From Flavobacteriales bacterium (lineage in GTDB: Bacteria; Bacteroidota; Bacteroidia; Flavobacteriales; Flavobacteriaceae), in contig JALVST010000013.1 of NCBI GenBank assembly GCA_027024205.1, positions 1-53,108 of the forward strand: a stretch of 53,108 nucleotides of DNA, in the 5' to 3' direction. The translations under genes and the position numbers were made by a program. Within the stretch, counting starts at the first letter, position 1. Every line of letters starts with the position of its first letter. Positions 39,579-41,655 of this stretch are shown here, piece after piece. A model generated the notes under the pieces. That model did no database searches and was not told where the DNA came from. It saw only the letters and a program-made list of their open reading frames with translations.

Positions 39579-40028
39579 ATGGTAAATTTAGATAAGTTGA
39601 ACAAGATTGCTTCAACAAGTTCCACATGGAAAGAAGAGGCAATAAAAAGAAGAGAAAACAGGGCTTGGCAAAAACATTCGCAAAGAATCGCCATTAAAGT
39701 TTTAAAAGCTCTCAGAGAACAAAATTTAAAGCAGAAACAATTGGCTGAAATGATTGGTGTTTCGCCACAACAAATCAATAAAATTGTGAAAGGTAATGAA
39801 AATCTAACCTTGCAAACAATTGCCAAATTAGAGGAAGCTTTAAATATTGATTTGATTTTTAATGAAAAGAATAATCAGAAAATTATAGTAAAGGATTTTG
39901 ACAGAAAACCTGTAATTTTTATTACCCCTTACAAAAACCGGAAAGAAGTCGTCCGGCGTCAATTATCATATTCTGTTAAAGAAGAATTTGTCTGTAATAA
40001 TGATTTAATGTCAGAAAACTATGGATAA
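39579..40028 (+). CDS. XRE-family antitoxin with chaperone-addiction-like tail
   Basis: This 149-residue DNA-binding protein has a helix-turn-helix domain at about residues 45-95 (QNLKQKQLAEMIGVSPQQIN then KIVKGNENLTLQTIAKLEEAL). The N terminus (LNKIASTSSTWKEEAIKRRE) matches the lead-in of Bacteroidota antitoxins. About 50 residues follow, ending PVIFITPYKNRKEVVRR and QLSYSVKEEFVCN, which would be the exposed chaperone-addiction region recognised by a SecB-like chaperone in known TAC systems. It overlaps the chaperone start by 8 nt. It is expected to repress its own promoter and neutralise the upstream toxin. Confidence 0.75.
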   Translation: MVNLDKLNKIASTSSTWKEEAIKRRENRAWQKHSQRIAIKVLKALREQNLKQKQLAEMIGVSPQQINKIVKGNENLTLQTIAKLEEALNIDLIFNEKNNQKIIVKDFDRKPVIFITPYKNRKEVVRRQLSYSVKEEFVCNNDLMSENYG

Positions 40029-40458
40029 TAAATATTCTAGCAAAATTGGTTTTCAATTAAGTAAAATCACAACAGAACAATTTGCAATTATTCCGGATGC
40101 ATATAATAAAGATAATCCCAAGATAGAAATGTCTATTGGGCTTAAATTTGGACTTAATAGATCGGAAAGAATGCTTGCGTCTTTTGTTATGGTTAGATTT
40201 GAGCAAAGAAATAAAGCTTTTATAATCATTGAAATTGGTAATCATTTTAAAATTGAAGAAAATTCTTGGAACAACTTTAAAAAATCAAATGATGAAGTTA
40301 TTGTACCGAAAGGTTTTGCAACTCATTTGGTTATGCTGACTGTCGGGACATTAAGAGGAACATTGCATTGTAAAACCGAAAACACAGAATTTAACAGCTT
40401 TATATTACCTACTATTAATGTTACCGAACTGGTTAAAGATGATATTGTTTTAAATTGA
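40021..40458 (+). CDS. SecB-like chaperone (TAC system)
   Basis: This 145-residue protein has the SecB layout: an N-terminal beta-strand region (SKIGFQLSKITTEQF), a central hydrophobic strand pair (AFIIIEIGNHFKIEE), and a C-terminal segment (VPKGFATHLVMLTVGTLRGT then HCKTENTEF, FILPTINVTEL). The last aligns with the E. coli SecB region LFPYARECI, SMVSRG and LAPVNF. In Bacteroidota, which often lack a general SecB, such proteins are usually the dedicated chaperone of a toxin-antitoxin pair. The 8-nt overlap with the antitoxin implies coupled synthesis. Confidence 0.75.
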   Translation: MDNKYSSKIGFQLSKITTEQFAIIPDAYNKDNPKIEMSIGLKFGLNRSERMLASFVMVRFEQRNKAFIIIEIGNHFKIEENSWNNFKKSNDEVIVPKGFATHLVMLTVGTLRGTLHCKTENTEFNSFILPTINVTELVKDDIVLN

Positions 40459-40731
40459 CATTTTTCAATATTGTAATCTAAAAAAAGTTTATACTAAAAT
40501 CCAGTTTCTACAAGCGATTGTTAATTTTTCAATTTTTTTCAATTTTTTTGATGTTTTTACAATATTGTTTAAGCAAATAGTCATAATAAAAAAAAATTCT
40601 TAATATATAAAGCGTCAAAAATAGTATTTTTAATAAAAAAACATCTATTTTATTCCCATATTATCAATATTTTTTCAAAAATTTTTTCAAAAAATATTGT
40701 TAAAAAAAATTTTTTCGTATATTTGCTTTAT
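40459..40731. other. A+T-rich gap between TAC operon and sigma-factor promoter
   Basis: No ORF is supported here. The sequence is highly A+T-rich with repeated TTTTTCAATTTTTTTC-like strings (about 40525-40555) and TTTTTTCAAAAA-type palindromes around 40670-40690. A clear intrinsic terminator for the TAC operon is not seen. Confidence 0.4.
40697..40725 (+). promoter_or_regulatory. Promoter of the ECF sigma-factor gene
   Basis: TTG at 40697-40699 is followed after 18 nt by TATATTTG at 40718-40725, a perfect match to TAnnTTTG. Transcription would begin near 40731 and give a leader of about 100 nt before the sigma-factor ATG at 40832. Confidence 0.65.
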
Positions 40732-40758
40732 TAAATCAAAACAAAACTGCCTATAAGT

Positions 40759-40835
40759 CCATATTTACGCTGTTTTTAACGAGGTTAACAACTCAGATGA
40801 AATGTAATTTCATCCAAATAAAGTCGTAAATATGG
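40759..40835 (+). promoter_or_regulatory. Structured leader locking the sigma-factor start codon
   Basis: CCATATTTACG (40759-40769) is a perfect 11-bp inverted repeat of CGTAAATATGG (40825-40835), and the latter contains the ATG start codon (40832-40834). The 55-nt interior holds two smaller hairpins: TTAAC-GAG-GTTAA (40776-40788) and GATGAAAT-GTA-ATTTCATC (40796-40814). The result is a three-way junction that would hide the initiation region. It could be a thermometer, a ligand-, small-RNA- or protein-controlled switch. Alternatively, as DNA, it could be a pair of operator half-sites. Confidence 0.6.
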
Positions 40836-41419
40836 GAAAAGCTAAATTTTACTCCGATTCCGAATTGATTGCCATGTATATCAATGGCAATGAGAATGTC
40901 TTAGAACAATTGATTAATCGTCACAGGGACAAGATTTTCGGTTTTATCTATTCCAAAGTTCGCAATCAGGAATTATCGGAAGATTTGTTTCAAGATACGC
41001 TTTTTAAAGTCGTAAGGACACTAAAAAAAGGAAAGTATCTTGAAGAAGGGAAGTTCTTGTCTTGGGTCATCCGTATTGCTCACAATATTATCATTGACTA
41101 TTTCCGTAAACAAAACAAAATGAAAAATGTTTACGAGACGGAAGATTTTTCAATGTTTGATATCCTCCACGATACGGGTCTTGATGCTGAAAAACAAATG
41201 ATACGGCAACAAATGATTAACAAAATACGGATTTTGATTGAACAATTGCCAAAAGACCAAAAAATTGTTTTGAAAATGCGGATGTATGAAGAGTTGTCTT
41301 TTCAGGAAATTGCCGAGCAAACCAATGTCAGTATCAATACGGCTTTGGGAAGGATGCGTTATGCTTTAATTAACTTGCGTAAGATCATCGAAGAAAATCA
41401 AATTAATTTAGCTGAATAA
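40832..41419 (+). CDS. ECF-type RNA polymerase sigma factor
   Basis: This 195-residue protein has sigma region 2 at about residues 25-95 (LINRHRDKIFGFIYSKV, LSEDLFQDTLFKVVRTL, FLSWVIRIAHNIIIDYFRK) and region 4 at about 135-190 (LPKDQKIVLKMRMYEELSFQ, EIAEQTNVSINTALGRMRYA). It lacks regions 1 and 3, as in extracytoplasmic-function factors, and no anti-sigma gene follows. Its leader folds over the start codon, which may replace anti-sigma control. Because porX lies in the same window and PorX of Porphyromonas acts through the ECF factor SigP, orthology to SigP is possible but not demonstrated. Confidence 0.93.
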   Translation: MGKAKFYSDSELIAMYINGNENVLEQLINRHRDKIFGFIYSKVRNQELSEDLFQDTLFKVVRTLKKGKYLEEGKFLSWVIRIAHNIIIDYFRKQNKMKNVYETEDFSMFDILHDTGLDAEKQMIRQQMINKIRILIEQLPKDQKIVLKMRMYEELSFQEIAEQTNVSINTALGRMRYALINLRKIIEENQINLAE

Positions 41420-41623: not shown

Positions 41624-41655
41624 AAAAGCTGTCCCGGAACGGACAGCTTTTTTTA
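41624..41655 (+). terminator. Intrinsic terminator of the sigma-factor transcript
   Basis: AAAAGCTGTCC (41624-41634) and GGACAGCTTTT (41641-41651) form an 11-bp perfect stem with loop CGGAAC, and the T-run extends to 41654. It ends the sigma factor plus short-ORF transcript and separates it from the convergent DUF2892 gene. Confidence 0.88.

Follow-up and report, generated by a model that had tools for sequence, protein, structure and literature searches.

A conserved RNA structure over the start codon of an ECF sigma factor gene in Flavobacteriales: a probable translational control element

The leader of an ECF sigma factor gene from a Flavobacteriales bacterium can fold its own start codon into a stem, and comparison with orthologous leaders gives good support to the view that RNA structure over the start codon is under selection. 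The gene lies in a stretch of 53,108 nucleotides (assembly GCA_027024205.1, contig JALVST010000013.1), hereafter the window. The element is probably a cis-acting translational repressor in the sigma factor leader, opened by a factor acting in trans, perhaps at a conserved GCCUAUA. Below we set out the leader and its gene, the covariation among relatives, and the ways in which the start codon might be opened.

The leader, its promoter and the sigma factor gene

The predicted protein has sigma-70 regions 2 and 4 only and a length of about 200 aa, which places it among the ECF sigma factors, while the nearest NCBIfam model (PRK12513) stays below cut-off. An orthologue at E ≤2e-43 is present in 83/99 genomes, its own included, and a phylum sample gave a match at 1e-35 in 117 of 247 genomes. 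Within the genus, 4 of 12 further genomes (G003, G004, G005 and G010), some of them incomplete, are without it, their best matches having E values of 1e-16 to 8e-14; these lineages may be able to dispense with the gene, or it may lie outside what was assembled. No characterisation of this widespread sigma factor was found in the open-access literature searched. The features of the locus are collected in Table 1.

Table 1. Features of the sigma factor locus (positions in the window)
Feature	Position	Strand	Basis or remark
Putative -33 element, TTG	40697..40699	+	Sequence; 21 nt ahead of the -7 box TA
Putative -7 element TATATTTG, Bacteroidota sigma-A promoter	40718..40725	+	TTTG / TAnnTTTG consensus
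Predicted leader RNA to stem end	40730..40835	+	Start near 40730 inferred from the -7 box
Conserved GCCTATA motif	40749..40755	+	Unpaired in the consensus structure
5' arm of stem, CCATATTTACG	40759..40769	+	Exact sequence, repeat search, covariation tests
Inner inverted repeat 1, 5 bp, loop 3	40776..40788	+	Absent from the minimum-energy fold
Inner hairpin 2, 8 bp, loop 3	40796..40814	+	Present in the minimum-energy fold
3' arm of stem, CGTAAATATGG, start codon 40832-40834 within	40825..40835	+	Sequence, covariation tests
ECF sigma factor gene, 195 aa	40832..41419	+	Sigma70_r2 and Sigma70_r4_2 above cut-offs (Pfam)
Small gene, 42 aa	41476..41604	+	After the sigma gene; conserved in Flavobacteriales
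Likely intrinsic terminator, GC-rich hairpin and T run	41624..41655	+	After the small gene; read from sequence

The arms CCATATTTACG and CGTAAATATGG are complementary at 11/11 positions across a spacing of 55 nt, and the ATG of the sigma gene sits within the second. The perfect 11-bp inverted repeat between the start of the leader and the ATG region, first described in a sequence-only reading of this DNA, is confirmed by this match and by shuffling of the gene's upstream region, where 11 bp was reached in 1/5000 shuffles. Among 51 ORF starts in the window (mechanical calls of at least 100 aa on both strands), the perfect repeat over the start is at most 6 bp in 49 and 7 bp in one, and reaches 11 bp at the sigma gene. 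For the RNA of positions 40750-40860 the folding energy is -23.1 kcal/mol (z -3.0; 1/200 shuffles equally stable), and the 11-bp stem is the backbone of its minimum-energy fold. Many other AT-rich inverted repeats occur in the region, as would suit a chance repeat in AT-rich DNA, but the rarity among shuffles and the covariation across 12 families described below make chance a practically negligible explanation. The same reading had placed two perfect inner hairpins within the stem. Both repeats exist, but only the 8-bp one appears in the minimum-energy fold, and in relatives its position is often conserved and its sequence is not. The interior is variable or very short in relatives. The conserved core is the outer stem together with GCCTATA, and not the two inner hairpins.

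Promoters of Bacteroidota have the consensus TTTG / TAnnTTTG (PMC6847099). In a second source the -7 box occupies -12 to -5 relative to the RNA start (PMC9723704), and the start of the leader RNA is therefore predicted near 40730, which is 5' of the entire stem. Of 89 orthologue leaders, 63 have an exact TAnnTTTG no more than 60 nt 5' of GCCTATA (median distance 33 nt) vs 5.4 expected from shuffles. The TTG of relatives is mostly 21-24 nt before the -7 box, and among the 63 leaders that have such a box the distance is 24 nt in 28. The good promoter that had been proposed just before the leader would correspond to these putative Bacteroidota-type boxes, with a predicted start near 40730, and not to any site of a sigma-70 scan, which returned 6 sites vs 6.1 in shuffles, none of them just 5' of the leader, and whose scope does not extend to Bacteroidota promoters.

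The small gene that follows is probably in the same operon as the sigma gene. A permissive pattern, used without a null control, picked up a related small ORF behind the sigma gene in 114 of the 128 rows with downstream sequence; the search covered 168 rows, 40 of them without downstream sequence, and counted second copies. In four comparisons within the genus, each over 32 codons, 9-12 of the codon differences were synonymous and 4-6 non-synonymous. The small proteins of relatives have 41-90 aa and end in a manner resembling ...FLLnYSKAL...LN. In other families there are forms of 88-90 aa (L028, L034, L079, L081, L083 and L085), the start of which, to the eye only, seems to recall a short anti-sigma domain. 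A Pfam search with five forms of the small protein, taken up to E 1, gave no anti-sigma family. The small protein is a candidate sigma partner, or may be an anti-sigma factor reduced in size. The earlier claim of a sigma factor with no anti-sigma gene in its vicinity accordingly needs a caveat, since a conserved small gene adjoins the sigma gene.

Tandem sigma copies, each with its small gene, occur in some genomes (L058, L061, L062, L064, L066 and L069). The second copies are without the leader element and share an upstream CTAGTTTTAnnTCA(T/G)AATT-like stretch, which is perhaps their promoter. On the other side of the leader, a gene with an HTH_3 (XRE-type) domain (39579-40028, +) overlaps one of no known family (40021-40458, +). 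There is a weak NCBIfam resemblance to HigA/HipB-type antitoxins, and the two genes are possibly a two-gene module.

Covariation and distribution of the stem

The comparison rests on 89 leaders, obtained from 103 orthologue hits after removal of 8 exact duplicates (leaving 95) and 6 second-copy leaders. In an alignment-free arm test, the 32 nt from GCCTATA were paired with the 36 nt ending one base past the ATG, the motif positions of L045, L068, L073 and L075 being set by hand. The arms of one leader pair with each other at -12.7 kcal/mol vs -7.8 kcal/mol when arms are swapped between species, and none of 20,000 permutations (sd 0.27) fell below -8.9 kcal/mol; the 89 leaders are interrelated, so that the permutation figures are not strict probabilities. 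The difference persists in the 32 leaders less than 60% alike (own -12.6 vs swapped -7.4 kcal/mol) and in 13 leaders from 12 families, one per family except for two from the window's own (-11.9 vs -7.5; 0/50,000 permutations reach the own value). For 24 later leaders, none of which was in the first arm test and about 9 of which were already sources elsewhere in the analysis, the values were -12.9 vs -9.4, again with 0/50,000 permutations reaching the own value. The own partner is the best partner in only 12/89 rows, because arms are common to near relatives.

In the window's genus the stem is 3 nt closer to the ATG than in other groups, and a MAFFT alignment misplaced the 3' arms as a result; the arm test and a covariance-model alignment were used for this reason. 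The latter holds 36 leaders, one of them from the window's genus, and is biased towards structure, a bias from which the arm test is free. Both sides change in 10 of its 16 pairs (48 cells vs 17.9 shuffled, 0/500), and 87.7% of cells are paired vs 79.0% shuffled, falling to 44-54% when the partner is slid. The helix is kept in 78.5% of cells over the AUG vs 93.2% just 5' of it. A plain alignment of 12 leaders of the genus only has the stem paired in 97.7% of cells vs 91.4% shuffled (1/500 as high). Most pairs there are invariant and the 2 doubly changed pairs are not above shuffles (282/500), while the base after the ATG covaries with its partner (UA 5, CG 4, GU 1, unpaired 2). The covariation check of orthologue leaders proposed with the sequence-only reading was thus strongly positive, by arm swap and by 10/16 pairs, and weaker when the genus was taken by itself. 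Inverted repeats often serve as operators, and the dyad might on that ground be a DNA site for a dimeric transcription regulator, not an RNA structure; the arms, however, diverge between species yet match each other, their spacing varies widely and the second arm lies on the start codon, which leaves such a site barely credible.

Pairing over the start region is conserved with compensatory change. In 85/89 leaders, 5 or more nt of the stretch -16..-1 are paired in a duplex that reaches -8 kcal/mol; the other four (L063, L075, L082 and L096) fall short of this value and have no good stem. At least 2 AUG bases are paired in 72/89. The 3' arm of relatives ends at the ATG or past it. Every one of the 89 leaders folds more stably than its shuffles do on average (mean z -3.4; 81% below -2). 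Between the arms lie 9 to 66 nt, in many cases with a hairpin (z < -1.5 in 55% of the 76 that are long enough). Of 24 leaders from orders of the class other than Flavobacteriales, 21 carry a recognisable relative of the 5' motif and 3 do not, and own arms pair at -9.8 vs -8.05 kcal/mol swapped (0.0008 of 50,000 permutations), in a test where the two segments overlap in some leaders (e.g. L147, L150-L152). Inspection by eye of 19 leaders further out (L156-L174) found no such element. These leaders, outside the class Bacteroidia, often have a CAATAA-like stretch far 5' of the start and no GCCTATA, again by eye.

Genome searches with covariance models place the element at this one gene. Model R2, which includes one member of the window's genus (L006), gave a single match in each of 33/41 family genomes under stricter filters, all beside the sigma gene (E ≤0.05). 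Six of the 8 family genomes without a match have the sigma gene, the window's genome included, and 2 are without it. Many of the matches are build sequences or near relatives and so form no independent test of the family; what the search shows is that no other genome place scores. Model R1, built without members of the window's genus, matched 19/60 genomes, 18 of them at the sigma gene, and its one match away from the gene (G063:C1:417129) has an E of 0.006, with about 0.4 expected over 60 genomes. Both models miss the window's own leader, whose stem is offset; among the 12 genus leaders, R1 taken up to E 1 found L006, L010 and L008. A pattern made from the window's leader, allowing at most 3 mismatches, found only the window's site in its genome. 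Rfam 15 gave no match to the leader: the window at gathering thresholds holds one tRNA only, and ten loci searched up to E 1 gave 5 sub-threshold matches, none at a leader. A metabolite riboswitch was considered and rejected, as there is one match per genome, at the same gene (33/33; 18/19 for R1), and no Rfam match; a riboswitch serving a single gene would still be compatible with these results.

The GCCTATA motif and the opening of the start codon

GCCTATA adjoins the foot of the stem, which has the AUG at its base. All seven positions match in 61/89 leaders (0.3 expected) and at least six in 84/89 (9.8 expected). Its information content of 1.07-1.91 bits per position is an inflated figure, since the leaders were placed by the motif itself. 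Within the same mRNA, at least 6 consecutive downstream pairs with the motif occur in 35/89 leaders vs 40.4 expected, which gives no partner there. Neither TATAGG nor ATAGGC occurs inside the 16S rRNA gene of three genomes; a 23S rRNA was found in 1/3 genomes searched, and in that locus the sense strand carries TATAGGC solely where the match begins at its 5' edge. A search of the genome for exact ACTTATAGGC gave one further site and no clear small-RNA partner of GCCUAUA. A second unpaired-looking motif, ACCCCAA, was seen in 18/115 leaders (0.2 expected), with ACTCCAA in 7 others. Its carriers have it in the leader interior (L027, L031, L032, L035, L037-L042, L045 and others), and it could be a further contact site.

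In the mechanism that we propose, a sigma-A promoter would start the RNA about 20 nt 5' of GCCUAUA, and the first part of the leader pairs just 5' of the AUG, usually with the AUG included, as the covariation shows. The stem would then block loading of the 30S subunit. A trans-acting protein or small RNA may use the unpaired GCCUAUA and relieve the repression, this being the weakest step of the scheme. The cell would in this way keep the sigma mRNA in store and translate it only when a signal arrives. Bacteroidota have no Shine-Dalgarno sequences, and in Flavobacterium johnsoniae initiation is reduced by structure around the start (PMC6847099); burying -16..+3 should on these grounds repress translation.

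Folding predictions agree with a closed start codon. At 25 C the mean predicted probability of an open AUG is 0.13 with a leader's own arms, vs 0.32 with shuffled arms, 0.26 with another orthologue's arms and 0.38 at 35 other ORF starts. The share with a probability below 0.2 is 76% for own arms, 30% for shuffled arms, 48% for orthologue arms and 34% for ORF starts, which means that roughly one in three of the window's ordinary ORF starts is likewise predicted closed. The sequence-only reading had seen in the leader a translational switch. Of this, the selected RNA structure over the start codon is supported; its opening is a proposal.

The rpoH mRNA, a sigma factor message with a structured start codon, is an RNA thermometer, and the present leader resembles it in being a sigma factor mRNA whose start codon is structured. 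A thermometer of the rpoH or ROSE type would free the start codon as an AU-rich stem melts with temperature. In favour of this are the AU-rich stem over the start region, often bulged, its place at a sigma gene, and the analogy with such leaders itself. However, the leader differs from rpoH in its conserved unpaired motif and in that the AUG is predicted to stay closed to 55 C: over the 89 leaders, the median predicted probability of an unpaired AUG goes from 0.007 (25 C) through 0.013 (37 C) to 0.061 (55 C), and that of the window's leader is 0.01 at 55 C. A thermometer would moreover leave the conserved unpaired GCCTATA unexplained, and we regard it as quite unlikely. Plain heat melting as the sole mechanism was set aside as unlikely on this in-silico melting, in which the predicted stem does not open in the manner of a thermometer. 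With heat alone unlikely to suffice, we propose a trans factor at GCCUAUA.

Nothing need open the stem if it acts as a constitutive attenuator, which would fix sigma synthesis at a low rate or allow translation only before the nascent RNA folds. Covariation is evidence of selection for pairing and not for switching, and no partner of GCCUAUA was found, both of which such an attenuator would accommodate. A fixed low rate, however, needs no conserved unpaired GCCTATA, and the enrichment of the intact motif given above makes this reading unlikely. The structure might also aid translation, if the stem were a scaffold that sets GCCUAUA beside the AUG for a ribosome-recruiting factor. The position of the motif directly at the stem foot, with the AUG at the base and an interior of widely varying length, would suit such an arrangement. 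The nucleotides just 5' of the AUG nevertheless lie in the best-kept part of the helix, start-region structure lowers initiation in the F. johnsoniae data cited above (PMC6847099), and the complement of the motif is absent inside the 16S rRNA of the three genomes, so that we consider an activating scaffold very unlikely. The repressor opened in trans is the reading that we carry forward. It may be extended, tentatively and with doubt outweighing belief, to a switch of the class Bacteroidia as a whole, inherited vertically, in which a dedicated trans factor would read GCCUAUA next to the stem and switch on translation of one ECF sigma factor, the RNA would have replaced part of an anti-sigma role, and the co-transcribed small protein would be what is left, in shrunken form, of the anti-sigma partner.

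Relation to known regulators and significance

In function, the leaders of rpoS and rpoH come closest to the present one. The leader of E. coli rpoS is reportedly opened by the small RNAs DsrA, RprA and ArcZ. As in rpoS, the 5' part of the present leader pairs with the translation start region, and there may be a single-stranded site at which a trans factor docks. Unlike rpoS, it belongs to another sigma class and another phylum, no small RNA was found, and its start, like others in Bacteroidota, is without Shine-Dalgarno pairing. In Flavobacterium psychrophilum, of the same order, 64 structured 5' regions have been listed, some of them family-conserved and absent from Rfam; the section of that text describing them mentions other genes by name and not this one, and overlap with the list is possible (PMC9723704). 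With the ECF factors described in a review as having no anti-sigma factor, the present gene shares the trait that no recognised anti-sigma gene adjoins it (PMC8999054). The terms mRNA, untranslated, small RNA and post-transcriptional are absent from that review of unusual ECF factors, and no leader-RNA mechanism was seen in it (PMC8999054). The open-access literature, most subscription journals being outside its scope, gave no description of the leader element. The suggestion that no riboregulator of this form has been described agrees with the lack of an Rfam match to the leader and of any account in the literature searched, and the element is, as far as the searches go, an undescribed RNA family.

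Accounts of ECF sigma factors usually place their control with anti-sigma proteins or at transcription. A leader kept by compensatory mutation across 12 families of one order, at one sigma gene, suggests that translational control may be the standing mode of regulation for this factor, in a phylum which initiates translation without Shine-Dalgarno sequences.
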